Shown here in pieces: positions 74 to 13,032 of a stretch of DNA of 64,000 nucleotides (position 1 is its first letter; each line of letters opens with the position of its first letter). The stretch is from Clostridiales bacterium (GTDB lineage: Bacteria; Bacillota; Clostridia; Lachnospirales; Lachnospiraceae), in the NCBI GenBank assembly GCA_020859985.1, contig JAJBVD010000008.1, positions 1 through 64,000 of the forward strand. The letters run 5' to 3'. Below the pieces are notes generated by a model. The model was not told the origin of the DNA, searched no databases, and was given only the letters and a program-made list of their open reading frames with translations. The position numbers and the translations under genes were made by a program.

Positions 74-538
74 TCAGCGTATCCTTAAGAATTTTTCGGC
101 ATGAATGTCGAGGTCACTCGAATAAACATACGGAATCAAATACTGTGAAAGCGCGTCTTCTTTATTGAAGCACTCCTTACTATACTCGCCCACAGAAGTG
201 ATTGTAACCATGTTTAGCCCGCAGCGGAGTATCCCTGTAAAAGAGATGGAAAACCACGCGGATGCAACATCCTCTTCATAGTCACGTCTGGACCAACCTT
301 TGACAATGATATCCGCCTGAATCGCCGCCCGAAATAAAATCCGGTCGTCTTCGGTTTCCTTAAATGTCACACCCATCACATGGAGATCGTCGAGTTTAGC
401 ATAATTTGGATCCGCAACAAGACTGGTATGTAAATTCAGCCTGCTGCGGTTCTGATAGATATACGAATTGAGTCGATTAAACATCAGGTCGTAATATTCA
501 TCTTCCAGATATGCTGCAAAAGTTCTGGTCTTACTCAT
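74..538 (-). CDS. Unknown protein, last gene of the type I R-M operon
   Basis: This 154-residue protein has no motif that fixes a function. The start is ATG at 538, nine bases after an AGGAGGG ribosome site. That ATG lies inside an ATGAGTAA overlap with the stop of the half hsdS upstream, so the gene is probably co-translated with the restriction operon. The acidic tyrosine-rich N-terminus and the pattern ending in a FLR motif recall the N-terminal domain that precedes an ImmA/IrrE protease domain in some Firmicute proteins. If so, the HExxH domain is missing, because the frame stops right after FLRIR. That family link is a recollection, not something the sequence proves. No membrane segment or signal peptide is evident. 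Confidence 0.55.
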   Translation of the reverse strand: MSKTRTFAAYLEDEYYDLMFNRLNSYIYQNRSRLNLHTSLVADPNYAKLDDLHVMGVTFKETEDDRILFRAAIQADIIVKGWSRRDYEEDVASAWFSISFTGILRCGLNMVTITSVGEYSKECFNKEDALSQYLIPYVYSSDLDIHAEKFLRIR

Positions 539-1166
539 CAAAGGAATCCCTCCTGTCTACTACTATATCGTAGTGTATTTCATGCCTCATAGCTCGTGAG
601 GTGTGATATTTTGATTTATCGCTCTGCCGGACAAAGTCGGCGAACTGTTGTTGAATGTCCAAACCTGGAACAGGGAAAATGACTTGTCCGAGGTTCTTAC
701 GACTGATACGCTTACGAGTGCTGCCTGTTACAGAAGTACCTATTTGGGAAGCATATAGCGGTGTAAGCGTATATGCGACAAAGAACTCCGGCAATATCAT
801 TTCTTTTAGACGTATAATACTGCAATCGACAGCAGTTATTGCTTTACCTAAACCTTTTGGTATTACGCAGGCTCGTCCAACTGGATCAGGAAGTCTTGAA
901 ATAAGGATGTCATTAGGTAAAACTTCTGTACAATGCAGTCGGTCAAAGGTCGGTTCATCTATGAATCTGGCACGTTCTCTCTTGTCCAGATAGACACCAT
1001 TACCCACATTGCCAGTCTGAATCAACCTGATACCTGTATCAGACTGGTCTTTGCTTTCAATCCAGTCCCCATCCGCAAATAAAGTACATACATTTTCTAT
1101 GGTAGAGCATTTTGTTTCATCCCCTATATAGGAAGCGAACTGCTCCATAAATTGAGATTTGAACAT
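531..1166 (-). CDS. Half-length HsdS (single target-recognition domain)
   Basis: The 211-residue product has one target-recognition domain and starts inside the conserved central HsdS spacer (KSQFMEQF). It ends soon after the second conserved motif FVRQSDKSK. A normal HsdS has two TRDs and about 380-400 residues, so this is half a subunit. Its start overlaps the altered 3' end of hsdS2 in a different frame. The stop overlaps the next ATG as ATGAGTAA. Half HsdS proteins can dimerise in some type I systems, but this copy may equally be a silent TRD donor for the full genes. Both readings are inference; the single TRD and the repeats at each edge are directly visible. Confidence 0.75.
   Translation of the reverse strand: MFKSQFMEQFASYIGDETKCSTIENVCTLFADGDWIESKDQSDTGIRLIQTGNVGNGVYLDKRERARFIDEPTFDRLHCTEVLPNDILISRLPDPVGRACVIPKGLGKAITAVDCSIIRLKEMILPEFFVAYTLTPLYASQIGTSVTGSTRKRISRKNLGQVIFPVPGLDIQQQFADFVRQSDKSKYHTSRAMRHEIHYDIVVDRRDSFDE
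608..636. repeat. Direct repeat copy C at 3' end of the half hsdS
   Basis: An imperfect copy of the 3457-3489 repeat, with a few substitutions, in the same orientation. With the central-spacer repeats near 1141-1165, 1711-1745 and 3986-4020 it makes the hsdS region a mosaic of exchangeable TRD cassettes. Confidence 0.75.
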
Positions 1167-2245
1167 CTCAGAGCGGCAAATTTTGATTTATCGCTCTGGC
1201 GGACGAAGGTGGCAAACTGCTCCTGTTGCTCGATTGGCGGTACTGGAATCACCAAATCTGCTATATTCTTGAGTGTCAAGTTGATTTGAGCAATCCCTTT
1301 TTTCTGCAAATTGTACTGTTTTTCAACAAAGGGCGATGCAAGCGCAGAAAGCAGGTATGACTTAAGGATAGAGGTGCTTTTCTTAAGCCTTATAATAGCT
1401 AACGCCTGATTAGTATTTGCAGGTAAAATATCTGCTGGAACGACCGCTATACGACCAATTGCCCCTGCTATCGAAAATAAAATATCTCCGTCCATCAGTT
1501 GCGAGCGACTTAGCTTCTCATGACATTCAGAAGTAATGTGCATTAAATCAGAAAGCATGATCTGTCCAGTTGCGGTGATATTTTCTACCTTTATGAAGTT
1601 GACGCCTTCCTTTACAAAGTTAAAACCAATCGTGGTAGGAGTTGTCCCCTTTGTTATTACATCAGACATTTCGCCGACACGCTGGAGCGGATAATCTTTT
1701 TCACCGAACTGCTCCATAAATTGAGACTTAACGAGCTCGTCGGTGGCAGCAATCAGCTTTTTGTAGGCCTCCATCGTGTCATTTATAGACCACAGCACCT
1801 CTGCCAGTTTGTGCTGAGTTTCTAAATCAGGCAACTCAAACTCAAGGTTTTTAAGGTCACGCCAGTTTATTGTAGGCGAGAGCGAACCTACAGAGATTTC
1901 GATGGCGGCGTCCAAAAAATAATCTGAGCTGATGAATAATGGAAAGAAGTCCTTATCAACTACATCTTCCTTGGGGCGTAACACCATACCGTGAGCAGAG
2001 AAAATACCGTCAAAAGGTGCGATAGCAACCTTCTTCTGATATGCTCGTCGTTTACCAAAAAGCACATCACCTTTTCTCATTACCAGCTTTTCTCCTATGG
2101 GAGCTACCTCCGCTCCAAATCGAGTCACCTTCAGACTGCCAGAATCAAGATGCTCCAGACCAAGGTATGTAAAGCGGTCTTCCTCAACGGGCTTTTTCTT
2201 CTCGGTACTGTTAATTGCAATCTCTTCAAACCGATATTTCGCCAT
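1124..2245 (-). CDS. hsdS: Type I restriction specificity subunit HsdS, second copy, altered C-terminus
   Basis: HsdS subunits choose the DNA target of the type I methylase/nuclease. This copy has two TRDs separated by the conserved spacer ATDELVKSQFMEQF. The start is ATG at 2245 behind AAGGAGG with eight bases of spacing. After the second conserved motif FVRQSDKSKF the sequence diverges: the closing helix seen in the upstream copy (ending TYKRIIAENLG) is replaced by a short unrelated tail. The reason is that the DNA runs straight into another copy of the central-spacer repeat in a different frame. It may be a silent or weakly functional cassette. It lies downstream of the recombinase gene. 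Confidence 0.85.
   Translation of the reverse strand: MAKYRFEEIAINSTEKKKPVEEDRFTYLGLEHLDSGSLKVTRFGAEVAPIGEKLVMRKGDVLFGKRRAYQKKVAIAPFDGIFSAHGMVLRPKEDVVDKDFFPLFISSDYFLDAAIEISVGSLSPTINWRDLKNLEFELPDLETQHKLAEVLWSINDTMEAYKKLIAATDELVKSQFMEQFGEKDYPLQRVGEMSDVITKGTTPTTIGFNFVKEGVNFIKVENITATGQIMLSDLMHITSECHEKLSRSQLMDGDILFSIAGAIGRIAVVPADILPANTNQALAIIRLKKSTSILKSYLLSALASPFVEKQYNLQKKGIAQINLTLKNIADLVIPVPPIEQQEQFATFVRQSDKSKFAALRCSNLNLWSSSLPI
1177..1209. repeat. Direct repeat copy B at 3' end of hsdS2
   Basis: A 33-base segment here is identical to 3457-3489, in the same orientation. It encodes the conserved FVRQSDKSKF region of HsdS. A third, imperfect copy lies at 608-636 in the half hsdS. Recombination between B and A would excise or duplicate the interval holding the recombinase and most of hsdS2. 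Confidence 0.85.
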
Positions 2246-2337
2246 TATGCACACCTCCTTACGAACGAGGTATGAACGGAGAAATCTTCAGGGGCTATAG
2301 GCCCGATAAATTGAGAATTGCAAACAGCTGATAGCGA

Positions 2338-3315
2338 CTACCCGATGTATTTCCGGTGTGATTCCTTCACGTTATTCTGGTTGACCATAGCATATTGTAG
2401 CGTGGTGTCGATACTTTGATGCCCCAAGAGCTGCTGCACCTGTTCTATAGGCATTCCCTTATCAATCGCCATCGTTGCCAATGTCCTGCGAAACTTATGT
2501 GGATGAACCTTCTGAAAGTTCAGTTCACGTCCAATTTTGCGGAGCCGAATTTCGACACCGCTAATCTGGAGCCGGTCAAACGGCTTAAGAAGGGAAACAA
2601 ACAGTGCCTCGTTATCATCAGTTCTTTCGGTCAGATAACGCTGGAGATGAATCTTGGTGCGGGCATCAAAATACACCTTCCTCTGTTTATTGCCTTTGCC
2701 AAAGACGATACACTCACGATTTTCAAAATCGACATCTGAGCGGTTCAGCTTAACCAACTCGCCGACACGAATGCCTGTGGAAGCAAGGATGTCAATCATC
2801 GCCAAGTCACGTGTATTGTCGCAGTGGTCACGCATCAGTTCTAATGATTCATCGGAGTAGGTTTCTTTTACCGTCTTGCCGGTTTTCACCTTGTGAATCC
2901 TTCTCACCGGACTCTTTACAATATAGTCTTCGTCTTCCAACCATGAGAAGAAAGATGAGAGAATACGTCTCACGTTATCCAGCGTTACTTTGCTGACAGT
3001 ACCACGGCGCTGATATGTGTCGAGATAACCACGCAAATCTTCCGTGGTTATCTGGCATTCCGGTTTGTTAATTGCCTCCAGCATATTGCGAATGGTTGAT
3101 TCGTAATAGCGGAGAGACTTTTCTGAGCAGCCCTCTACACGCTTCGCTGAAATAAACAGCGGCAGCATATCTGTCTTTTTGTTGGCGTCCTCTGATGGGA
3201 CGTTTTCCAATGGCGCCAGGTGCTTATTCAACACCTGATACACCTGCTTCATTTGTTCTTCAGTCAGGATATTAGATAAATCCTGCTGTATGTTTTCGAT
3301 TACTTGAGCGATCAT
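2338..3315 (-). CDS. Tyrosine recombinase (XerC/D-like) inside the hsdS array
   Basis: This 325-residue integrase has an N-terminal SAM-like core-binding domain and a C-terminal catalytic domain. The visible catalytic residues are Arg in TGIRVGEL, the His-x-x-Arg of HPHKFRR, His in LLGHQ and the nucleophile Tyr in TLQYA. Phase-variable type I loci often carry such a recombinase that shuffles hsdS modules (known, for example, in streptococci and Bacteroides). Here it sits between two same-strand hsdS genes whose 3' ends share an exact 33-base direct repeat. The start is ATG at 3315 after AAGGAGGAAACTTT. That ribosome site is complementary to a segment about 40 bases upstream. Confidence 0.9.
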   Translation of the reverse strand: MIAQVIENIQQDLSNILTEEQMKQVYQVLNKHLAPLENVPSEDANKKTDMLPLFISAKRVEGCSEKSLRYYESTIRNMLEAINKPECQITTEDLRGYLDTYQRRGTVSKVTLDNVRRILSSFFSWLEDEDYIVKSPVRRIHKVKTGKTVKETYSDESLELMRDHCDNTRDLAMIDILASTGIRVGELVKLNRSDVDFENRECIVFGKGNKQRKVYFDARTKIHLQRYLTERTDDNEALFVSLLKPFDRLQISGVEIRLRKIGRELNFQKVHPHKFRRTLATMAIDKGMPIEQVQQLLGHQSIDTTLQYAMVNQNNVKESHRKYIG

Positions 3316-3316
3316 A

Positions 3317-3374
3317 AAGTTTCCTCCTTTTCATATCCTCCGTTACCGGTGTTTCCACGAGCCGGAGGAAACTT
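3317..3374 (-). promoter_or_regulatory. Hairpin burying the recombinase ribosome-binding site
   Basis: An 11-base inverted repeat, AAGTTTCCTCC at 3317-3327 and GGAGGAAACTT at 3364-3374 as written on the plus strand, encloses 36 bases. In the minus-strand mRNA the 3' arm contains the GGAGG ribosome site of the recombinase gene. Folding would therefore hide the site, which may limit recombinase translation. The same repeat could alternatively be a recombinase arm site. The pairing is seen; the function is inferred. Confidence 0.5.
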
Positions 3375-3388
3375 CATGCCCTTTTCAA

Positions 3389-4513
3389 TTAGCCAAGATT
3401 CTCTGCAATGATTCTTTTGTAGGTCGCAGTCAGTTCAGACAGTGCCTGTTCGAGTTCAAATTTTGATTTATCGCTCTGGCGGACGAAGGACACAAATTCT
3501 CGTTGCACATCGATTGGAGCCTGCGGAATTTGCGATGCCTTTACCAGATCCGACGGTATACCTTTAATTGTTGCACCACGCTTCTGACTCTCATAAAATG
3601 GGCAGTATTGCTCGATTACCTTCTTGATAAAGAGCAGGTCGTACTTGCCAGTATCAATATCGACGAATGATAAAATATCTTGGTTAGTACACATTTCGCA
3701 CTGATTGATGGAGCTTTTACCTACGCCAACACGGTTTCCCACCATAAGAGAGTGCGCAGGGACGACGTGGGTCGACGACATTTGCACGCCGAGCGGCGTC
3801 AGCCAATTTTGTGCTGCGGAGGCATCGATATAGTTTGGTCCGAGGCAGGGCGTAGATACAAATGGAATATCGCCTCCAAAGTATTCTGGATGTTTACTGG
3901 ACGGAGTGCCTCCAGATATCATATTGCTGATGCTACCAAGAGCAACTGTTGGATATTTGGATTGTCTTCCGGCCCCACCAAACATCTCTATAAATTGAGA
4001 TTTCACCAGTTCATCTGTTGCTGAAATCAGTTTTTGATATGCCTTCTTCGTATCGTCAATTGCCCACAAAAGCTCTGCAAGCTCTTTCTGCTTGTCCATA
4101 TCGGGCAATTCAAATTCATAGTTCTTCAGATGTTCCCATTTCACGCGCGGAGAAAGGGAACCGGCAGACTTACCGACAGCGAAGTCAAACAAGGCATCAT
4201 TTTGAATAATGAACGGAAGTAGCTCCGGCAAAATGCGGTCGGGTTTCGCTTCAATAACCGTGATGTCACCGGAACAGATGCCGTCAAATGGTGCGACAGC
4301 AGCTTTTTTCAAATAGGCACGGCGACGTCCAAACAGGACATCTCCTTTGCGGAACATTTTAGTGAAGGTGTTATCGCTGTCTTCGTCCCAAGTAGTCAAA
4401 GTAATTTCTTCCGGCACAAGGTGCTCAAGACCGACAATAGGATATCCATCTTTACTGCCTTTGCAGGTTTCCTTATGTTCCACGGCGACGTCGCCAAGAA
4501 AGACCTTACTCAT
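3389..4513 (-). CDS. hsdS: Type I restriction specificity subunit HsdS, full copy
   Basis: This 374-residue subunit has the full HsdS plan: TRD1, the conserved central spacer SATDELVKSQFIEMF, TRD2, the conserved motif FVRQSDKSKF and a closing helix ending in TYKRIIAENLG. It is the only copy here with an intact C-terminus, so it is the best candidate for the expressed specificity subunit. The start is ATG at 4513, nine bases after AAGGAGG, and it overlaps the hsdM2 stop as ATGAGTAA, which implies translational coupling. A longer upstream start is less likely. The recombinase gene follows immediately. Confidence 0.92.
   Translation of the reverse strand: MSKVFLGDVAVEHKETCKGSKDGYPIVGLEHLVPEEITLTTWDEDSDNTFTKMFRKGDVLFGRRRAYLKKAAVAPFDGICSGDITVIEAKPDRILPELLPFIIQNDALFDFAVGKSAGSLSPRVKWEHLKNYEFELPDMDKQKELAELLWAIDDTKKAYQKLISATDELVKSQFIEMFGGAGRQSKYPTVALGSISNMISGGTPSSKHPEYFGGDIPFVSTPCLGPNYIDASAAQNWLTPLGVQMSSTHVVPAHSLMVGNRVGVGKSSINQCEMCTNQDILSFVDIDTGKYDLLFIKKVIEQYCPFYESQKRGATIKGIPSDLVKASQIPQAPIDVQREFVSFVRQSDKSKFELEQALSELTATYKRIIAENLG
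3457..3489. repeat. Direct repeat copy A at 3' end of hsdS1
   Basis: Identical over 33 bases to 1177-1209 and in the same orientation. It lies at the 3' end of the intact hsdS, upstream of the recombinase in transcription order. Confidence 0.85.
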
Positions 4514-6005
4514 TGACATCTGCCTCCTTTCCCAACAGTGCATTTAATTTCTCATAGCTCAACTTCATCATTTCCGAGGAGGCTCTCCAGCTATCATAGT
4601 GTTCCTGAATGGTACGGTTGTCGGTTTCTGCTTCATTAACCTCCGGTTTTACATACAGCGGTATGCTCAATGAAAAGTTGTTATCCGCAATATCTTGAAT
4701 GGTGGCTACTTTTGCAAAATCTCCATCATCAGTATAGCTGTCATAGGCAGCGGCAATTCGAGCGATGTGTCGTTCCTCCAAATAGCTTTGTGCGTTTTTG
4801 CGTTCCACTTCATTCACAGCATTAATGAACAGTACCTGTCCTCGACGGTCGGGACGCTTGGTCATACGGCAAATCATGATGCAGGCTTCCATCGGTGAAT
4901 TATAAAACAAATTGGGACCAAGGCCGATAACACATTCTACCTTGTCGCTGCGTACCAGCTTCTCGCGCATTGTACTTTCTTCGTTACGGAAAAGAACTCC
5001 GTGCGGGAAGAGAATCGCGCATCGACCGGTATCTTCCTTGAGACTCGCAAGGATGTGCTGCAAGAAAGCATAGTCGGCGCGCCCTTGCGGAGGTACACCT
5101 AAGAAGTTGCGTCCGTATTTATCGCTTTCAAATGCTGCTCGATCCCACTGGCTGATAGAGTAGGGCGGATTTGCGAGGACAAGGTCGAACTGCTTAAGTT
5201 TTCCGTCCTCGATAAATGCGGGGGCGGCAAGTGTGTCGCCGTTTACAATGTTAAAATCCTTGACACCATGAAGGAACAGATTCATTCTTCCGATAGCGGA
5301 AGTGAGGCTGTTGATTTCTTGCCCGTATACCGCAACATTGCGCCATTCCTTATTTTTTTCTTTGAGATATGCGATTGCCGAAATGAGCATACCTGCGCTT
5401 CCACAAGTTGGGTCATAGATGGACTCGCCGGATTCTGGCTTCAGCATCTCCGTCATCAAATGCACAACAGTACGATTCGTGTAAAATTCCTGCGCGGTAT
5501 GTCCGCTGTCGTCTGCAAATTTTTTGACAAGATACTCATATCCTTGGCCGAGTTCGTCTTCTGGGCAGTTCGCAATTGAGAGTGTTTTTGTGCTGAAGTG
5601 TTCCAACAGGTCTTTCAGTAGGCGGTCAGGCAGCCGGTTTTTATTCGTCCATGCTCCGTCGCCGAAGATACCATGCAATTTGTCGATGTTTGCATTCTCT
5701 ACCTTGCGAAATGCCTCGACAATAGCAACACCGACATTTTCTGATACTGCACGAACATCATTCCAATGGTAACCCTGCGGCACCACAAAAGTGTGGATTT
5801 CATCATCGTCAAATTCGGCTGCGTCTTCACCATACTCTTCAATAGCCTGTGCCGTCTCTTCATCGTAAACATCACAAATGCGTTTGAAGAACAGCAGCGG
5901 GAAGATATATTGCTTATAGGCACCGGCGTCAATATTGGTTCTCAGAAGAACTGCCGAATTCCAAAGGTAAGACTGCAATTCCTCAATTGTTATTCTTTTA
6001 CTCAC
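4506..6005 (-). CDS. hsdM: Type I DNA adenine methylase HsdM, second copy
   Basis: This is a 499-residue N6-adenine methyltransferase subunit. It has an N-terminal HsdM helical domain, an AdoMet motif DPTCGSAG at about residues 198-205 and the catalytic motif NPPY at about 279-282, so it should be active. It starts at GTG (6003-6005) and ends in an overlap with hsdS. The neighbouring upstream hsdM domain is a different paralogue, not a duplicate: motif I reads CGSAG here and CGTGG there. One hsdR with two hsdM genes is unusual, because the textbook complex is R2M2S1 with identical M subunits. A mixed M1/M2 complex or an exchange copy are both possible. Confidence 0.9.
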   Translation of the reverse strand: MSKRITIEELQSYLWNSAVLLRTNIDAGAYKQYIFPLLFFKRICDVYDEETAQAIEEYGEDAAEFDDDEIHTFVVPQGYHWNDVRAVSENVGVAIVEAFRKVENANIDKLHGIFGDGAWTNKNRLPDRLLKDLLEHFSTKTLSIANCPEDELGQGYEYLVKKFADDSGHTAQEFYTNRTVVHLMTEMLKPESGESIYDPTCGSAGMLISAIAYLKEKNKEWRNVAVYGQEINSLTSAIGRMNLFLHGVKDFNIVNGDTLAAPAFIEDGKLKQFDLVLANPPYSISQWDRAAFESDKYGRNFLGVPPQGRADYAFLQHILASLKEDTGRCAILFPHGVLFRNEESTMREKLVRSDKVECVIGLGPNLFYNSPMEACIMICRMTKRPDRRGQVLFINAVNEVERKNAQSYLEERHIARIAAAYDSYTDDGDFAKVATIQDIADNNFSLSIPLYVKPEVNEAETDNRTIQEHYDSWRASSEMMKLSYEKLNALLGKEADVNE

Positions 6006-6114
6006 TGATGTAACCTCCCTTCAGTAAGAGCTGACGCATTTTTTCTTCAGCAGTAATCATCTCTTCGTAAGCCTCAAAATACTGCCTGCGGATTTCTGCC
6101 GGAGGAACGGTTTC
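5998..6114 (-). other. In-frame continuation of HsdM1 behind an amber codon
   Basis: The hsdM1 frame closes with TAG at 6115-6117. The next 38 codons remain open and end at TAA 5998-6000. They begin ETVPPAEIRRQYF and close with LLLKGGYIS-E, which looks like the normal C-terminal tail of HsdM proteins. The terminal TAA overlaps the hsdM2 GTG start as GTGAGTAA, the same coupling arrangement as hsdM2/hsdS. A CAG-to-TAG change would explain this. The tail may be lost or made by readthrough. Confidence 0.7.
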
Positions 6115-8415
6115 CTACTCTTTCTTTTCGATGTAGTTGTTAATGGCAAGCGAGTAGTCTTTATCCTTGATTTCGGGTATAGTCACGATTTTAACTTTTT
6201 CGATAACGTCTTCATACGCGGTATAAAGGCTGTAGACCGTTTGAATATCGTTCTCGCTCATTATGTTCTGTGCCCGCTGTGGTGTATAGATATTGGAGCC
6301 GTCAATCATGCAGATGCGACCTCTGTGCGAGACAGCCTTATTGTTGTTCAAGAACAGAATACAAGCCGAAACACCGGTGGAGTAAAAAACACCACTGGCC
6401 ATCGTAATGATAGCTTCGAGCTTATCTGATTCAACAAGTTGTCTCCTGATTTCGCCCTCCTTGCCACCTCTAAAAAGTACACCTTGCGGAAGCACAACGG
6501 CACAGCGACCGGTCTTTGGATTCATGGATTTTACCATGTGCTGAAGCCAGGCAAAGTCACCATTGGAGTCTGTCGGGCAACCCCAGATATTTCTTCCGTA
6601 AATATCGCTGCTGAATTGCTCGGCTCCCCAGTTCTTGAGCGAAAACGGGGGATTTGCGACCACACAATCAAATGTCTGCAAAGACCCACGCTCCAGATAA
6701 TTCGGGGAACGCAAGGTATCGCCCTGCGTTACTTTGAAATCTCGCGCACCGTGCAAAAACAGATTCATTCTTGCAATAGCAGATGTAGCAAGGCTTTTTT
6801 CTTGCCCATAAATTTTGCCATAAGTCAGCTTATCATCATGCATAAATCTGATAGCTTCGATTAGCATTCCCCCGGTTCCACACGCAGGGTCATATACAGT
6901 TTCTCCAGCTTTTGGAGCCATCAGCATAATCAGCAATTTTACAATAGAACGGGGTGTGTAAAACTCACCGGCGTTCTTCTTTGATAGATCGGCAAATTTC
7001 TTAATGAGAAACTCGTAACTGTCGCCCATAACATCTGCAGAGTAATTTTCATTTCCTACCTTGATTTTTGACATATGTTCAATCAAGTCTTTCAAGCGTT
7101 CGTCGGACAATTTGGTTTTATCCGTCCAGTTCGCATCATCAAAACTACTGAACACGCCGCTGAGAGTATCGGGATTAGCACGTTCAATACCATTCATGGC
7201 ATTAACAATCGCCACACCGACATTTTCACTTGCCTCACGGACATCTTGCCAATGGCATCCTTCCGGTATCACAAAACGATGGTTCTCCGGAAAGCTGGCA
7301 TATTCTTCATCGCCGCCGGATTCCTCAAGTGCCGCCTGCGTTTCTTCATCATATACGTCGGAAAGGCGCTTATAAAAGAGGATAGGAGTTACATAACTTT
7401 TGTATTCGTCCTGATTTATAGGGCCGCGCAAAATGTTACAGGCTTCAAACAGGTGTGAGAAGAGCTTTTGACTTGTTGTTTCCTCGTGATGTGCAACGCT
7501 GGCTTCAAGCTCCGTATCTGCAACATCCATAGCTGATTGCATCATTTCCGCACGACCTCCTATTTCTGCTTTTTTACCAGTAGAAGGTTCCACACCAACA
7601 CTACCGCTTTCTTGAATCTTTTCGAATTTGGGTGGATATCGATTTTCAAATTCCAACAAAATCTTTAAGAGCCGCTCGTCTAAAAATGTGAGGGCGTGCT
7701 TTCTTATATTTGTTGGCACACCATAATATGCTTCAGCTACAGCGCCGGTAATAGCAGCAATGGTATCGCTGTCGCCGCCAATAGAAATAGCATTACGAAT
7801 TGCGTCCTCAAAGCTGGTGGATTCGAAGAATGCTTCGAGCGCTTGTGGCACAGTATTTTGACAGGTTTCGTTGAACTGGTAGGTATCACGGATGGAATCC
7901 AGCGTAAAGTCAATGGGATAATAGTGCTTTACGATATAATCCTGAATTTCCATAAGACTGTTGCCTGTTCGAGCAAGAAAAACTGCAACCGCAGTAGCTT
8001 CCGCACCCTTGATGCCTTCCGGGTGATTGTGGGTGATTTCAGTGACACTTTTTGAAAGAATGATGGCTTCTTCAATAGAGTTTGCCACATATCCGCATCC
8101 ACTGACTCGCATAGCCGCACCATTACCGTAGCTGTTGTATGGATGTGGACGATCGGAATATATCCATTTGCGGAACGAACCGCCATAACCGCAGTTCGGA
8201 TATGGACGACCGATTTTTTGCATGGAATCAACTGTCTGTTCGCCGAGGTCGCTATAGTCAGAATTGCTTCGCATAAGAGCGTCACATATGGCCAGTGACA
8301 TTACAGAATCATCTGTAAAGAAACATTTATGGGTGAGCAGGTCGAAATCCTTTGATTTGTGGTTATCCCACTCAAAGCGCGATCCGACGATATCACCGAT
8401 GATTGCTCCAATCAT
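6115..8415 (-). CDS. ADP-ribosylglycohydrolase-HsdM fusion
   Basis: One 766-codon frame joins two domains. Residues 1 to about 262 are an ADP-ribosylglycohydrolase (DraG/ARH family): it starts MIGAIIGDIVGS, has a metal motif FTDDS at about 33-37 and the second motif GGDSDT at about 213-218. After a linker, residues about 310-766 are a type I HsdM with DPACGTGG at 509-516 and NPPF at 588-591. Both halves keep their catalytic residues. ARH enzymes remove ADP-ribose from proteins or nucleic acids; HsdM methylates adenine. The start is ATG 8415 behind GTGAGG, 22 bases after hsdR. A ribosome site inside the linker could also give a free HsdM. The frame ends at a TAG that cuts off a conserved tail. 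I know of no characterised protein with this layout. Confidence 0.88.
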   Translation of the reverse strand: MIGAIIGDIVGSRFEWDNHKSKDFDLLTHKCFFTDDSVMSLAICDALMRSNSDYSDLGEQTVDSMQKIGRPYPNCGYGGSFRKWIYSDRPHPYNSYGNGAAMRVSGCGYVANSIEEAIILSKSVTEITHNHPEGIKGAEATAVAVFLARTGNSLMEIQDYIVKHYYPIDFTLDSIRDTYQFNETCQNTVPQALEAFFESTSFEDAIRNAISIGGDSDTIAAITGAVAEAYYGVPTNIRKHALTFLDERLLKILLEFENRYPPKFEKIQESGSVGVEPSTGKKAEIGGRAEMMQSAMDVADTELEASVAHHEETTSQKLFSHLFEACNILRGPINQDEYKSYVTPILFYKRLSDVYDEETQAALEESGGDEEYASFPENHRFVIPEGCHWQDVREASENVGVAIVNAMNGIERANPDTLSGVFSSFDDANWTDKTKLSDERLKDLIEHMSKIKVGNENYSADVMGDSYEFLIKKFADLSKKNAGEFYTPRSIVKLLIMLMAPKAGETVYDPACGTGGMLIEAIRFMHDDKLTYGKIYGQEKSLATSAIARMNLFLHGARDFKVTQGDTLRSPNYLERGSLQTFDCVVANPPFSLKNWGAEQFSSDIYGRNIWGCPTDSNGDFAWLQHMVKSMNPKTGRCAVVLPQGVLFRGGKEGEIRRQLVESDKLEAIITMASGVFYSTGVSACILFLNNNKAVSHRGRICMIDGSNIYTPQRAQNIMSENDIQTVYSLYTAYEDVIEKVKIVTIPEIKDKDYSLAINNYIEKKE
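7540..7562 (-). promoter_or_regulatory. Possible internal ribosome site for a free HsdM
   Basis: On the minus strand TAGGAGG (7562-7556) is followed after ten bases by two in-frame ATG codons (7545-7540), residues 291-292 of the fusion. They lie in the linker about 20 residues before the conserved HsdM start. This could yield a standalone HsdM beside the fusion, and may be the relic of two once-separate genes. Confidence 0.45.
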
Positions 8416-8437: not shown

Positions 8438-11362
8438 TTAATAATACTGCTCAATATAGTTATAGGCTTTATCAAAGACATCCTTGTCTTTGATTTTGTA
8501 TTTAATCCAGACGACACTGCGGAGAGCTTTTTTAACTTCTTGCTTACCGGCTGTGGTGTTCTGCCAACCATCAAACCGAACAATTTTTACGATGCTGTCA
8601 ATGTCCGCAACGATGCGCTCCACAATAACAGGTGTACTGCGGTTTTTTACGCCATTAAAAAGTTTAGTAAGCGCTGCGATACCTTTATCCACCTCTTCCT
8701 CTGGTACAACTTCCTTTTCAGCCTGTGCAGCCTCCTTAGCCAATTCAAGTAGAAGTTTCAGAAATTCGATGCTGGTGATGAGTCCCTGCTCGTGTTTTTC
8801 ACGCAAGGATTCTAACTTCTCACCCAGCCGTACAAACTTCGGGTCGTTAGAGTGATGCAGTATTTTCGCAACGAGATTAATTTCAACCTTCTTCGTTGTC
8901 TTCCTCAAATCCTTCTGTTTCTCTAAGAAGTCATCGATAAGGTCGGCGTCCATAGAAAGAATATCCATGTCTTCATCGGCCTCACCGACAGTGACATTCT
9001 GATGGACAAGTTCAATAGTTTTCGCGCCAAGAGATGCCCAGATTAGTCCGCCGCGACCGTCTGTCGGTTTTACAGATTCATATACACGGGAAAGCCACTG
9101 ATAATCGACCTTATATGGATTTAGAAAGCTGTCAGGAGACAGGGCATCCCATGCGCGATTTAGGACACGGTAATCCGCTGCAAATGCATCCTTTTCTTTG
9201 TTTGTGGGCAAGCATTCCTGTGCGGCCATCAAACCTTCCCAGCCTTCAACAGTCCTGTCTACGCCCATAAAATAACTCAGGCATTTTTTTAAGAGTGCCG
9301 GAAGCTGCTTTTTGATTTCTTCAATGTTGGTAATGATACGGCGCATACTGTTTTCATCAAAATCAAGAGCTTTTGCCACATCATCAAAGATGCCGATATA
9401 GTCAACAATCAGTCCATGTGTCTTTCCTTGGTCATAGGTTCTGTTGGTACGACATATGGCCTGAAGGAGGGTGTGGTCTTTCATTGGTTTGTCAAGATAC
9501 ATAACTTGAAGAATCGGTGCGTCAAATCCGGTCAACAGTTTCGCTGTGACAATCACAAGTTTGAGAGGGCTGTTTGGGTCACGGAAATAATCCAGAACTT
9601 TTCCTTCCTGGTCACGGTCACGGCGATATTTTTTATATCTATCCTCTTTATCGTTATTCGTATCCATGACAATCGTGGTAGCTTCTTCGCCGAGCAGTTC
9701 GTCAAGGACAGCCTTATACATCAAGCAGCATTCACGGTCATAAACGACCACTTGTCCTTTGTAACCGTTAGGCTCTATCTTCTCCTTAAAATGCTTGGCG
9801 ATGTGTTCGCACACCTTACGGATACGAGCCGGATTGTACATAATGGCTTTCATATTGACACGACGTGAAAGTTCATTCTTTTCATCTTTTGAAAGCCCAG
9901 CCTCGTTAGTCATTTCATCAAACTCTCGGTCAAGTTTATCCTTGTCCACATGGAGTTCTACCGGAACTGGCTCAAAGTGGAGAGGCAGGGTTGCCCCATC
10001 ACGGATGGAATCTGAGAAGGAATATCGACTCATATATCCGGTGCGGTCTTCTTCAGCGCCGAATGTGGCAAAAGTGTTCTTGTCAACACGATTGATAGGT
10101 GTACCGGTCAGACCGAAGAAGAAAGCATTCGGAAGCGCCATCCGCATTTTTTCGCCGAGGTTGCCCTCTTGCGTTCTGTGTGCTTCGTCCACCATGACAA
10201 TGATATTGTCTCGTGCATTCAATTCGCCGTCAACCTCTCCAAACTTGAAAATGGTTGTAATAAGGATTTTCCTCATATCCCCACGGAAAAATGAAATCAA
10301 TTCTTCCTTTGTGGATGCGCTCGAAAGGTTAGGTATATCGGATGCATTAAAGGTAGCTGTGATTTGCGTTTCAAGGTCAATGCGGTCATCAACAATTACG
10401 ACCGTTGGATTCCTAAGCTCTGGAATCATACGGAGCTTCTGCGCGGCAAATACCATCAGAAGAGATTTGCCGGAACCTTGGAAATGCCAGATGAGACCCT
10501 TTTTCGGATAGCCTGCGACCACACGATTAACAATCAAATTTGCACCTTCAAACTGCTGGTACAAGCAGATAATTTTATATTTGCGGTATTTCTTATCAGT
10601 CGCAAACATAGTGAAAAATTGAAAGATGTCCATTACCTTTTCTGGAACAATCATATCTTCAATACTAATTTTTACATCGGCAAGACCGCCTTCCGCTTTG
10701 TGGGTAGCGGTATGCCAAGGTCCCCACATATTGATGGGCATATTAATTGAACCATAGCGGTAGCATTTTCCCTCTGTTGCAAAGTTAAATACGTTCGTCA
10801 CAAACATAGCTGGTATGCTCTTTTCGTAGGCAGAAATATCTCCGGCGGCATCAAGCCATGTAATCGCACTGCGAACAGGCGTTTTAAGTTCGCCAACAGC
10901 AATCGGAAATCCATTAATGAGAAGCACAATGTCAAGCCGTTTGCCGCCTTCCGCCTGCGGATATACCCATTGATTCGTAACGACATATTCATTGAGAGCA
11001 AGGTCTTCTTTATTCATGGTTCCAAAAAATCGAATTGGTATCATGCGTCCGTCCTTGCCAAAGGGATAGGAATTTTCTTCAAAAATCATCTTTTTGAAAA
11101 TTTCGTTCTGGGTGACAAGGTTATGCGGCTGAACAGACAAAATAACCGTTCTGAGCTTGTAGATGACTTCATCTGCACGAGAAGGTTCTTCTGCAATTTC
11201 AGGATTTAATCTTATCAGCGCTTCTTTCACCATAGGCTCAACAAGTACGTCCGAATACATACGGGGAAGCTCCTCGGCGGGAATATACTGCCACCCGTTG
11301 CCTTTGAGTGTGGAAATAATCATCTGCTCGATGGTGTTATCTTCGTTAAAATTCTTAGTCAT
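8438..11362 (-). CDS. hsdR: Type I restriction endonuclease/translocase HsdR
   Basis: This 974-residue motor and nuclease subunit cuts unmodified DNA at a distance. The N-terminal PD-(D/E)xK nuclease motif is seen as LDIV (D144) and GELK (E158, K160). The SF2 helicase carries Walker A GSGKS near 296-300, DEAH at 392-395 and GLTGTP further on. The C-terminal region is helical and charged, as expected for the HsdM-binding end. It starts at ATG 11362 after GGAGGAAGCATT. It lies 62 bases after the degenerate methylase gene and 22 bases before the ARH-HsdM fusion, so it is in the same operon. All catalytic motifs are intact. Confidence 0.95.
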   Translation of the reverse strand: MTKNFNEDNTIEQMIISTLKGNGWQYIPAEELPRMYSDVLVEPMVKEALIRLNPEIAEEPSRADEVIYKLRTVILSVQPHNLVTQNEIFKKMIFEENSYPFGKDGRMIPIRFFGTMNKEDLALNEYVVTNQWVYPQAEGGKRLDIVLLINGFPIAVGELKTPVRSAITWLDAAGDISAYEKSIPAMFVTNVFNFATEGKCYRYGSINMPINMWGPWHTATHKAEGGLADVKISIEDMIVPEKVMDIFQFFTMFATDKKYRKYKIICLYQQFEGANLIVNRVVAGYPKKGLIWHFQGSGKSLLMVFAAQKLRMIPELRNPTVVIVDDRIDLETQITATFNASDIPNLSSASTKEELISFFRGDMRKILITTIFKFGEVDGELNARDNIIVMVDEAHRTQEGNLGEKMRMALPNAFFFGLTGTPINRVDKNTFATFGAEEDRTGYMSRYSFSDSIRDGATLPLHFEPVPVELHVDKDKLDREFDEMTNEAGLSKDEKNELSRRVNMKAIMYNPARIRKVCEHIAKHFKEKIEPNGYKGQVVVYDRECCLMYKAVLDELLGEEATTIVMDTNNDKEDRYKKYRRDRDQEGKVLDYFRDPNSPLKLVIVTAKLLTGFDAPILQVMYLDKPMKDHTLLQAICRTNRTYDQGKTHGLIVDYIGIFDDVAKALDFDENSMRRIITNIEEIKKQLPALLKKCLSYFMGVDRTVEGWEGLMAAQECLPTNKEKDAFAADYRVLNRAWDALSPDSFLNPYKVDYQWLSRVYESVKPTDGRGGLIWASLGAKTIELVHQNVTVGEADEDMDILSMDADLIDDFLEKQKDLRKTTKKVEINLVAKILHHSNDPKFVRLGEKLESLREKHEQGLITSIEFLKLLLELAKEAAQAEKEVVPEEEVDKGIAALTKLFNGVKNRSTPVIVERIVADIDSIVKIVRFDGWQNTTAGKQEVKKALRSVVWIKYKIKDKDVFDKAYNYIEQYY

Positions 11363-11424: not shown

Positions 11425-13032
11425 TTAAAACAGCTTTGATTCAATGTCATGCCGGACACCACGCCAACCTTCCTCGGCGGCTGCAATTGTTTCCTTATAG
11501 AATTTCAGCCCGGTGTTATATTCTTGTATCAGAGCATCTTGAGCTTCGAGTGGCAACACAGGTACCTCCAGTTCAATGATATCTCTATAGTTAATATTTA
11601 CAACTACAGTACCTCGTTGCAAACTTTGAAGCATCTTGATTCCCACCGGTGACTCAAGAAAGAGCTTTAAATAGCCACCACGCAACATCTCTTTTGGTCG
11701 GATTACATTTATATTAGCGGAAGGAATGCAGATCGTTGGCTGCTTTTCAAAAACAGCAACTTTTACCGTAGTACCTCTTGCGGTCACCAGGACATCTCCA
11801 TCTTCAAGAACATAACGTGATACCTTTCGCGGTTCTTCCTCAATGAAATCAAGGGCTTCGTAATCAATTCCTGTATCGGTAATATTCGAGATGTTGATTA
11901 CTGCGATATTCCCACTTTCGGATTTTGTGTTTACTGCCTTGCCACGAAACACCGTCGCAGCGTCCTTTAATCGCAGCTTCTTTACAGGAGAAGAAGCAAA
12001 AGATTTCATGTCCTCGTCTTCTTCAGAAAAAGCCATATCGATGTTCCAGCCGTTTAGGTCTGCAAATTCATCGCTAAATAGAAGAAGCTCGTTTTCAATC
12101 ACCAGTTTCTTGCAGGGCGAGGTCTTGCGAATAGGTTTGTCAGAGCTGTATTGTCTCAGTACCACATCATCAGTTTGACCTGTGGAGAATACAAACAGGT
12201 AGGTGCGGATGGATGTATACGGAGTAAACAGTCCGGCGGGCAAAGCGCTGATTTCCTTAATTTTATAATTACTTTCAATGTATTCACGCAGCGCGGCGGC
12301 GCTACCACCACCAAATGTTATCTTTGCGGGCAACACAATCACGAGCTCGCCGTCCATATTAATATGGTACAGAAGATTCTGTACAGCTATTAAATCGGGC
12401 TCCCTGCTGATAAAGTCCTCCCCATTTACCAGCATTCGTCCGCCGAAAATAGGAACGCAGAAAATTAGGTCGAATTTTCTGTCTGTAAAACCATAGCTGT
12501 AAATGTCTGCAGAAATCATTTTTACATTTTCAATGTGACTATAAGCGATTGAAATCAGCTCGGCTTTTATTGCCTGACGAGACACAAGAGTAAACTCAAT
12601 TTCTGGGTTTGCCTCAACCAAATCAAGAAGAGATGGACCATATTGCTCACATTCAGTAACCAGTATCTTTTTCGTATTGTCGTTGAAATATTTAGAAAAA
12701 TTTTCGACTAAAACATCTGGCACGTAAAGCTCCCGACCATCATTGGCTATATTCATAAAGGAAAGAATGCTTCGCTCATCAATTGGAGAGAGTGTTTTGT
12801 AGATTGAAAAAAACAGCTCGGCATCTCCGGGGAAGCGTGGCAAAGAAGTGGATACCTCCTGCATAGTCTTGTAAACTATATCGGCGTTGTCGTCTTTTCC
12901 AGAGGATGATTGCTTGGTCTTGACAACTCTATAGAGGAGATCAATCATGCTTGACTGGTCTCCAAATCCATAACTTCTCATCACGTCTACTGCGTTGCGT
13001 AAATCCTTGTCTATTATTACGTTTCTACTCAT
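11425..13032 (-). CDS. Degenerate methylase domain fused to a single HsdS TRD
   Basis: The 535-residue product opens the restriction operon. Residues about 100-310 follow the methyltransferase fold, but the motif I region (VTECEQYGP) lacks the AdoMet glycine motif. The catalytic NPP[F/Y] position reads CVPIFGG, so it is probably not an active methylase. Residues about 350-535 are one HsdS-type target-recognition domain (conserved stretches VFRGKAV and GTVVVNINYRDI). It may be a DNA-binding modulator or competitor of the HsdS subunits, or a distinct accessory subunit. The start is ATG 13032 after GGGAGG, just below a consensus promoter. The function is not known to me. Confidence 0.75.
   Translation of the reverse strand: MSRNVIIDKDLRNAVDVMRSYGFGDQSSMIDLLYRVVKTKQSSSGKDDNADIVYKTMQEVSTSLPRFPGDAELFFSIYKTLSPIDERSILSFMNIANDGRELYVPDVLVENFSKYFNDNTKKILVTECEQYGPSLLDLVEANPEIEFTLVSRQAIKAELISIAYSHIENVKMISADIYSYGFTDRKFDLIFCVPIFGGRMLVNGEDFISREPDLIAVQNLLYHINMDGELVIVLPAKITFGGGSAAALREYIESNYKIKEISALPAGLFTPYTSIRTYLFVFSTGQTDDVVLRQYSSDKPIRKTSPCKKLVIENELLLFSDEFADLNGWNIDMAFSEEDEDMKSFASSPVKKLRLKDAATVFRGKAVNTKSESGNIAVINISNITDTGIDYEALDFIEEEPRKVSRYVLEDGDVLVTARGTTVKVAVFEKQPTICIPSANINVIRPKEMLRGGYLKLFLESPVGIKMLQSLQRGTVVVNINYRDIIELEVPVLPLEAQDALIQEYNTGLKFYKETIAAAEEGWRGVRHDIESKLF

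Follow-up and report, generated by a model that had tools for sequence, protein, structure and literature searches.

The stretch of DNA analyzed here, which we call the window, comprises positions 1-64000 of an 89,895-base contig (JAJBVD010000008.1) from a Clostridiales bacterium of the Lachnospiraceae (assembly GCA_020859985.1), whose 3.8 Mb genome is 97.8% complete. It contains a Type I restriction-modification (R-M) locus in which an ADP-ribosylhydrolase (ARH) domain and the first of two methylase (M) subunits, HsdM1, form one open reading frame (ORF) of 766 aa on the minus strand (8415..6115), beginning with ATG and ending with an in-frame TAG. Pfam places ADP_ribosyl_GH at residues 1-233 (E 1.3e-32), HsdM_N at residues 320-448 (5e-26), and N6_Mtase at residues 459-765 (4e-94), all three far above the curated cut-offs, and the motifs TDD, GGDSDT, DPACGTGG, and NPPF are all found in the frame. 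We delimit the ARH domain as residues 1-260 (7636..8415, minus strand), from the Pfam match, the helices of a structural model (residues 2-259), and the position of its conserved residues (E15, T34-D35-D36, N98, and D215-x-D217-T218), and the HsdM1 part, with the motifs AGEF and NPPF, as 6118..7458 (minus strand). Between them, the alignment and the model show a linker of about residues 261-313 (7477..7635, minus strand), with a hairpin at 264-275 and a helix at 288-306, that has the lowest conservation in the protein. A Foldseek search with the AlphaFold2 model of the fusion (pLDDT 80.6, pTM 0.60) returned HsdM structures, with ARH3 (5zqy, 6g1p) at rank 49-50.

HsdR (974 aa; 8438..11362) adjoins the fusion, 22 nt upstream, and HsdM2 (499 aa, with motifs AQEF and NPPY; 4506..6005), HsdS (3389..4543), a tyrosine recombinase, a second HsdS, and half an HsdS lie downstream, all on the minus strand and assigned by Pfam; the operon thus contains two different, adjacent hsdM genes. 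The first-pass annotation of this DNA had described an ARH/DraG domain and a complete HsdM in one frame, embedded in an intact R-M operon. The fusion and the ARH motifs were borne out by our analysis, as was the completeness of both Pfam HsdM domains, but the C-terminal tail of M1 is cut off by the TAG (6117-6115), and the operon of the window copy is therefore not intact. Beyond this TAG the frame stays open for 38 codons to a TAA (5998..6114, minus strand), which overlaps the HsdM2 start by 8 nt; the two genes also overlap in 30 of 30 relatives measured, and in 11 of these the overlap is again 8 nt. The 38 codons match the M1 C-terminal tail of relatives, which is present in all 27 relatives of the full-length alignment, and we therefore regard its loss as a defect of this copy and not of the family.

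Comparison with solved structures places the system in a known class. By both sequence and structure, the best match of M1 is PacII M1 (7vru_A, E 1e-134) and that of M2 is PacII M2 (7vru_B, E 2e-164). NPPF is present in 32 of 32 fused M1s, together with AGEF in 28 (the window included) and AGEY in the other four, and NPPY is present in 28 of 28 M2s; the sections of PMC9613975 on non-canonical Type I systems assign AGEF and NPPF to the N6-methyladenine (m6A) subunit and NPPY to the N4-methylcytosine (m4C) subunit, and cite Morgan et al. 2016 as the discovery of this class. In an HsdM tree with long branches, on whose placement the tool warns, and from which L095, L097, L102, and L100 were left out, the 32 fused M1s group together as a single clade (100/100) and two plasmid M2s fall with the 28 M2s in another (100/100), so that several independent M1 fusions are not needed. 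Judged by its sequence, then, the host system is a two-M, non-canonical m6A/m4C Type I R-M system (M1+M2+S+R) with the ARH on M1 only, and by analogy the fused M1 is the counterpart of PacII M1, which is adenine-methylating in PacII. The fused systems share with PacII (PDB 7VRU, 7VS4; PMC9613975) two adjacent, different M subunits with these motifs, an S, and an R. They differ in that the PacII M1 chain is 499 aa long, with no room for an ARH, that their M2 carries AQEF (28 of 28) instead of the AAEF of PacII-type M2, and that a further family, MS535, often lies alongside. Two plasmid loci, in Streptomyces hirsutus (L251) and Exiguobacterium aurantiacum (L252), have the same M-M-S-R order, with first and second M proteins 49-50% and 56-62% identical to M1 and M2, respectively, but neither an ARH nor MS535 was found beside these plasmid two-M systems. 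The Exiguobacterium M1 branches next to the fused M1s in the HsdM tree (98/82), and the Streptomyces first M with six single-M enzymes (94/72); being equally close to M1 and M2 (49% each), the latter is at most a candidate M1.

Our searches identified the same fusion at 35 or more places besides the window (36 in all), a lower bound because each contig scan gave the best 80 loci only; two of these loci (L072 and L173) are identical, including their M1 and M2, and two (L034 and L174) are nearly identical, and all four were kept in the counts, whereas L100, which lies on the same contig as L033, was dropped, and L254 was kept out of the alignments, trees, and junction counts. The full-length protein has 799-832 aa in 29 of the 35; four copies (L034, L095, L102, L178) are cut by contig ends and two (L097, L254) are broken. 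A search with the ARH region found matches in 56 of 299 genomes of the family (limit 1e-10) and 73 of 392 of the order (limit 1e-40), two draws that overlap, and six distinct genomes, our own included, have ARH and HsdM in one frame, a count in which broken fusions could be missed. Further fusions came from scans of genome and viral contigs with a junction alignment (A1), and eight of the fusion places are on contigs of a viral collection. When M1 was searched against 398 genomes of the phylum, scoring at most three candidates per genome, the candidates were our own genome, G639 (the broken fusion L254), G854 (44%), and G1010 (38%), and the G854 candidate (L255) is matched better by M2 than by M1 and is joined to S. 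By record title the hosts are mostly Bacillota, with single metagenome-assembled genomes (MAGs) titled Synergistaceae, Deferribacteraceae, and Sphaerochaeta, where MAG binning may err. No record covering 80% of the fusion was found in the plasmid collection (query: the window protein) or in the phage collection (query: the L091 protein), where the best record aligns with the ARH part only (67%), and a megablast of the L091 gene against the E. coli collection gave no match.

The surroundings of these fusions are those of a Type I system. A second hsdM lies directly downstream in 32 of the 35, the exceptions being two copies at contig ends (L095, L102) and the broken L097; HsdM2 is accordingly found at 32 loci, HsdS at 28, HsdR at 18, MS535 at 18, a recombinase at 11, and a family we call unk74 at five, all of which are lower bounds since many contigs end early. 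The first-pass annotation had asked whether ARH and HsdM pairs always sit in Type I loci, and they do so at every locus whose surroundings are long enough to judge, which those of L095 and L102 are not. In Streptococcus anginosus J4206 (L097, 9818-12372), the ARH~M1 frame is cut short at 548 aa and a KilA-N gene follows it, with no separate M2, S, or R in the stretch; this locus is a remnant of the system. Some copies of the fusion seem to ride on mobile elements. Genes seen beside fusions include those for a conjugation coupling protein (L072, 8221-10065), a Toprim protein (L173, 2328-3725), and a serine recombinase (L097, 6063-7862).

Unfused ARH genes have different surroundings. We fetched 208 loci with an unfused ARH (170 distinct ARH sequences, the longest stretch for each being 2.8-20.7 kb and at least 8 kb in 131 of the 170) as best matches to the query and not as a random sample, and none has an hsdM ORF scoring above 150 bits. 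Separate ARH and hsdM1 genes in one operon, as a usual state, were therefore not found among them, and the idea that the ARH is always separate in homologues, named in the first-pass annotation as an outcome that would count against a true fusion, fails on these loci and on the 35 other fused ones. One of the 208, L182, has HsdR and MS535 as neighbors and represents a broken or truncated fusion close to the end of its contig. In another, L122, a stand-alone ARH (9821-10630) is followed by a 48-aa HsdM1-like remnant, a hint of fission of a former fusion in one of 209 ORFs. Since no hsdM lies beside the unfused ARHs fetched, save for the L182 fragment and the L122 remnant, and since two-M systems without an ARH exist, the join is a derived and specific association.

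The fused ARH looks like an active enzyme under purifying selection. All 28 aligned fusions carry the same residues at E15, T34-D35-D36, N98, H131, D215, D217, and T218; from alignment to ARH3, we take E15 to be the counterpart of the ARH3 catalytic glutamate, and the TDD and DxDT motifs are the metal ligands of this fold. The ratio of nonsynonymous to synonymous substitutions (dN/dS, Nei-Gojobori) in the ARH is 0.023, 0.042, 0.043, and 0.025 in the four pairs, out of eight, whose dS is finite, the first of these (window and L171) having a dS of 3.5, near saturation, and the other four pairs being saturated. In the same four pairs the linker is above the ARH in three (0.111, 0.277, and 0.079) and zero in one, and M1 ranges from 0.009 to 0.097. 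The best solved sequence matches of the domain are ARH3s, followed by Lmo0067, MJ1187, a 303-aa ADP-ribosylglycohydrolase (2cwc), and DraG. It shares the fold and metal ligands of the DraG/ARH3 hydrolases, but these are not joined to a methylase, and the fusion scores far below the equivalog cut-offs of both DraG (TIGR02662, 55.3 bits against 337) and Tri1 (NF041672, 27.8 bits against 490). Elsewhere, relatives of this ARH are fused to other domains in three of eight long ARH proteins scanned, namely to SseB in L038 (9787-11127) and L090 (8940-10700) and to HD and SseB in L089 (1504-3465).

Phylogenies of the two halves of the protein do not tell the same story. In ARH trees, all built without L100 and L102, fused and stand-alone sequences are interleaved: in an earlier tree of 34 fused and 54 stand-alone rows (L182 among the latter), the starred branches by themselves require seven changes or more, and in a second tree of 34 fused rows, without L182 and 26 other stand-alone rows (27 of 54 kept), forcing the fused ARHs into one clade costs 335 log-likelihood units and is rejected by the approximately unbiased (AU) test (p 2.4e-7). 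Distances of ARH and M1 nevertheless correlate across 32 fusions (Mantel r 0.52, with 0 of 2000 permutations as high), L108 being the most out of line. Because the fused M1s form one clade but the fused ARHs do not, swaps or fissions of the ARH must have occurred, and these trees and distances point to an old join that has mostly been inherited, with such swaps or fissions along the way, in one direction or the other, between fusions and stand-alone genes. This exchange of the ARH between genes fits a module drawn into an arms race.

The reading we favor, tentatively and with a little less than even confidence, is that the fused ARH is a built-in counter to ADP-ribosyltransferases (ARTs) of phages and plasmids, reversing hostile ADP-ribosylation. 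The ARH would lie next to the DNA, at the jaw of the clamp formed by M1 and M2; ARTs delivered by phages or plasmids would attach ADP-ribose to the restriction complex or to DNA close to its sites, and the ARH would remove it, allowing restriction to keep working as a form of counter-counter-defence. The structural account in PMC9613975 describes the N-terminal and catalytic domains of PacII M1 and M2 as meeting on binding of target DNA, and an N-terminal ARH would therefore sit near the mouth of the clamp. The attackers of this class named in PMC9613975 (Ocr, ArdA) are DNA mimics. We prefer built-in reversal because ARTs are given as the commonest predicted protein-modifying domains in the "polyvalent" proteins that phages and conjugative elements inject (in the part of PMC5512222 on these proteins), because host systems centred on an ADP-ribosylglycohydrolase (ARG) and directed against viral ARTs are predicted by Iyer et al. 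2022 (PMC9503650, section 3.8), and because relatives of our ARH are fused to SseB or HD and SseB, which the same section predicts as partners in host systems against viral ADP-ribosylation. Those ARG-centred systems share the ADP-ribosylglycohydrolase domain with the fusion and are defined by having no coupled ART; at the fused loci, no ART was found in the seven of eight recurrent neighbor families that were scanned with Pfam, non-recurrent neighbors being outside the scan. The presence of the fused gene in many distant bacteria suggests a restriction system that repairs itself against shut-off by phages. A fuller version, in which an m6A/m4C Type I enzyme has its own repair domain, an M1-borne ARH that reverses ADP-ribosylation inflicted by phages or plasmids on the enzyme or its target DNA and is repeatedly swapped between fused and stand-alone genes as the attackers change, we hold more guardedly, as a possibility worth roughly one chance in three.

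Several points weigh against this preference. No phage ART acting on a Type I enzyme was found in the literature searched. The Nudix/WYL regulators, phosphatases, and chaperones that accompany the predicted ARG-centred systems were absent from the seven recurrent neighbor families scanned. DarT was absent from our own genome; a PF01129 search there was uninformative, its controls also being without a match, which makes the ART survey a partial one. The AQEF motif of M2 is a departure from the PacII type, and the window copy itself is probably inactive and unable to assemble, since the TAG removes the M1 tail whose deletion in PacII is reported in PMC9613975, in its part on assembly, to leave the whole complex unassembled; readthrough of this stop, or an error in the consensus or assembly, would change that verdict. 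Finally, the substrate and activity of the ARH and any phage phenotype are only predicted: the first-pass suggestion that the domain removes phage-placed ADP-ribose is consistent with the conserved active site and the purifying selection.

Another view, which we consider unlikely, is that DNA is the substrate of the ARH. At the recognition site, the domain would free bases or ends of their ADP-ribose and thereby let modified phage DNA be read or cut by M1/M2 and R. This view is in keeping with the joining of the ARH to a DNA-binding subunit and with the ARH3 proteins as its best solved sequence relatives, some ARH3 enzymes acting on nucleic-acid ends. No phage DNA modified in this way was found in the literature searched, however, and in the systems covered in the relevant part of PMC9503650, ADP-ribosylation of DNA goes with a macrodomain or NADAR partner (DarT-Macro/NADAR). 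Rather unlikely, in our estimate, is a self-regulation of the DraT/DraG kind, with a host ART modifying the R-M enzyme and the built-in ARH reversing this. The domain is of the DraG type and the system is otherwise variable, with its recombinase and several hsdS genes, but the score of 55 bits against 337 does not make it a DraG equivalog, and the recurrent neighbors scanned (seven of eight families) supply no ART for such a cycle. The other first-pass suggestion, that the ARH regulates HsdM itself, may or may not hold on these data.

The junction bears on a further alternative, that the join is mostly genetic, with an internal start yielding a separate HsdM1 and the ARH a passenger on the same message. 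In the window, a possible internal ribosome site (7543..7561, minus strand) consists of AGGAGG (7561-7556), a 10-nt spacer, and the ATG of codon 291 (7545-7543), and the same arrangement, GGAGG with a spacing of exactly 10 nt to an in-frame ATG that aligns with this codon, is present in 12 of 35 fused ORFs (the window included, L254 outside the count). Only 13 such pairs of GGAGG and start occur elsewhere in those ORFs at any allowed spacing, and GGA is the first codon of the Gly-Gly pair in all 12 cases at the junction and in 61 of 228 elsewhere; the 12 rows are related (L072 and L173 identical), so these counts are not independent. Unfused first M genes have their annotated starts some 14 and 22 residues further downstream than codon 291, and the short product would therefore be a whole HsdM1. 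A separate HsdM1 may thus also be made from the junction start, and the site hints, no more, at a second start that is still in use or at the vestige of an earlier hsdM start. An internal start is not a universal feature, as 23 of the 35 fused ORFs have no Shine-Dalgarno sequence, and the frame is open through the junction in 36 of 36 aligned rows; with the relatedness of the 12 site-bearing rows, this leaves the passenger role quite unlikely. We think it improbable that the ARH degrades soluble ADP-ribose derivatives, whether to tie restriction to other NAD-based defence or to clear the signal of the latter. According to PMC9503650, O-acetyl-ADP-ribose is also a substrate of ARH-type enzymes, but the paper argues that such domains prefer macromolecular adducts, and a soluble substrate would give no reason for a covalent join to M1. 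That the fusion is a sequencing or assembly artefact, a doubt voiced in the first-pass annotation, can be discounted almost completely, for although many loci are on metagenome-type contigs and the stop in the window is absent from all 27 relatives in the full-length alignment, the same fusion is found at the 35 other loci, in genomes of several genera and in records that carry no MAG label, such as Robertmurraya massiliosenegalensis JC6 (L094), Paenibacillus pinistramenti (L098), and Colidextribacter sp. OB.20 (L093).

In line with the first-pass annotation, which knew of no characterized fusion, we found no description of an ARH~HsdM fusion in the literature searched, although Morgan et al. 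2016, which lies outside that literature, may list fused M1s. The term "ADP-ribosyl" does not occur in the text of PMC9613975, and section 3.8 of PMC9503650 is silent on any fusion to a Type I HsdM, the ARG-centred systems there appearing with Nudix/WYL regulators, phosphatases, and chaperones. One element of about 75 kb, a conjugative transposon of Phocaeicola vulgatus, likewise has both a Type I R-M system and a gene for an ARH, but the description in PMC11005914 names the two as separate items. We therefore file the fusion as a variant of m6A/m4C Type I systems not described in the literature searched. PADLOC scores it as a Type I methyltransferase; among the matches listed for three fusions (the 25 best of 44, 37, and 39 families), the best stretches start at residue 306 or later, past the ARH, and defence catalogues may for this reason score ARH~HsdM1 loci as plain Type I. 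The conserved covalent link between an ARH and a restriction enzyme makes a testable case, with one protein and two point mutants, and built-in reversal, if true, would give the first example of a host defence against viral ADP-ribosylation that is physically part of a restriction enzyme.

Our own genome has a second ARH (L051, 9109-10191) that is 46% identical to the fused one, and no R-M genes of the fused system were found in 20 kb around it. Downstream of the fusion in the window, the region 531-4543 contains the tyrosine recombinase (2338..3315) and, besides the first HsdS, the second HsdS (1124..2254) and the half HsdS with one target-recognition domain (531..1166), all assigned by Pfam and on the minus strand, with direct repeats at the conserved regions of hsdS. 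No inverted repeats were found around these hsdS copies, all of which are on one strand, and the recombinase probably shuffles hsdS to give variable specificity.

Upstream of HsdR lies MS535 (11425..13032, minus strand), which combines a degenerate methylase fold with one HsdS-like domain and belongs to the family also present at 18 of the 35 other fused loci. The N-P-P-[FY] motif is missing from 18 of 18 aligned rows of this family, and the HsdS-like domain is 36-38% identical to Esub1 (8vsq), which has also been crystallized with a protein named Prx (8vsr). A different methylase-like protein is encoded upstream of the fusion in L099 (7170-8987), L112 (1246-2979), and L108 (7514-9256); the one in L099 has Pfam N6_Mtase and HsdS domains, and its methylase match is stronger than that of MS535. 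Proteins of the unk74 family, of up to about 640 aa, are encoded near the system in five of the 35 other fused loci (for example, L171, 14745-16625, and L107, 17770-19689) and show a weak likeness to IrrE/ImmA peptidases (Peptidase_M78, below cut-off) and to CapP. The window has no more of this family than a 155-aa ORF at the contig edge (74-541, minus strand).

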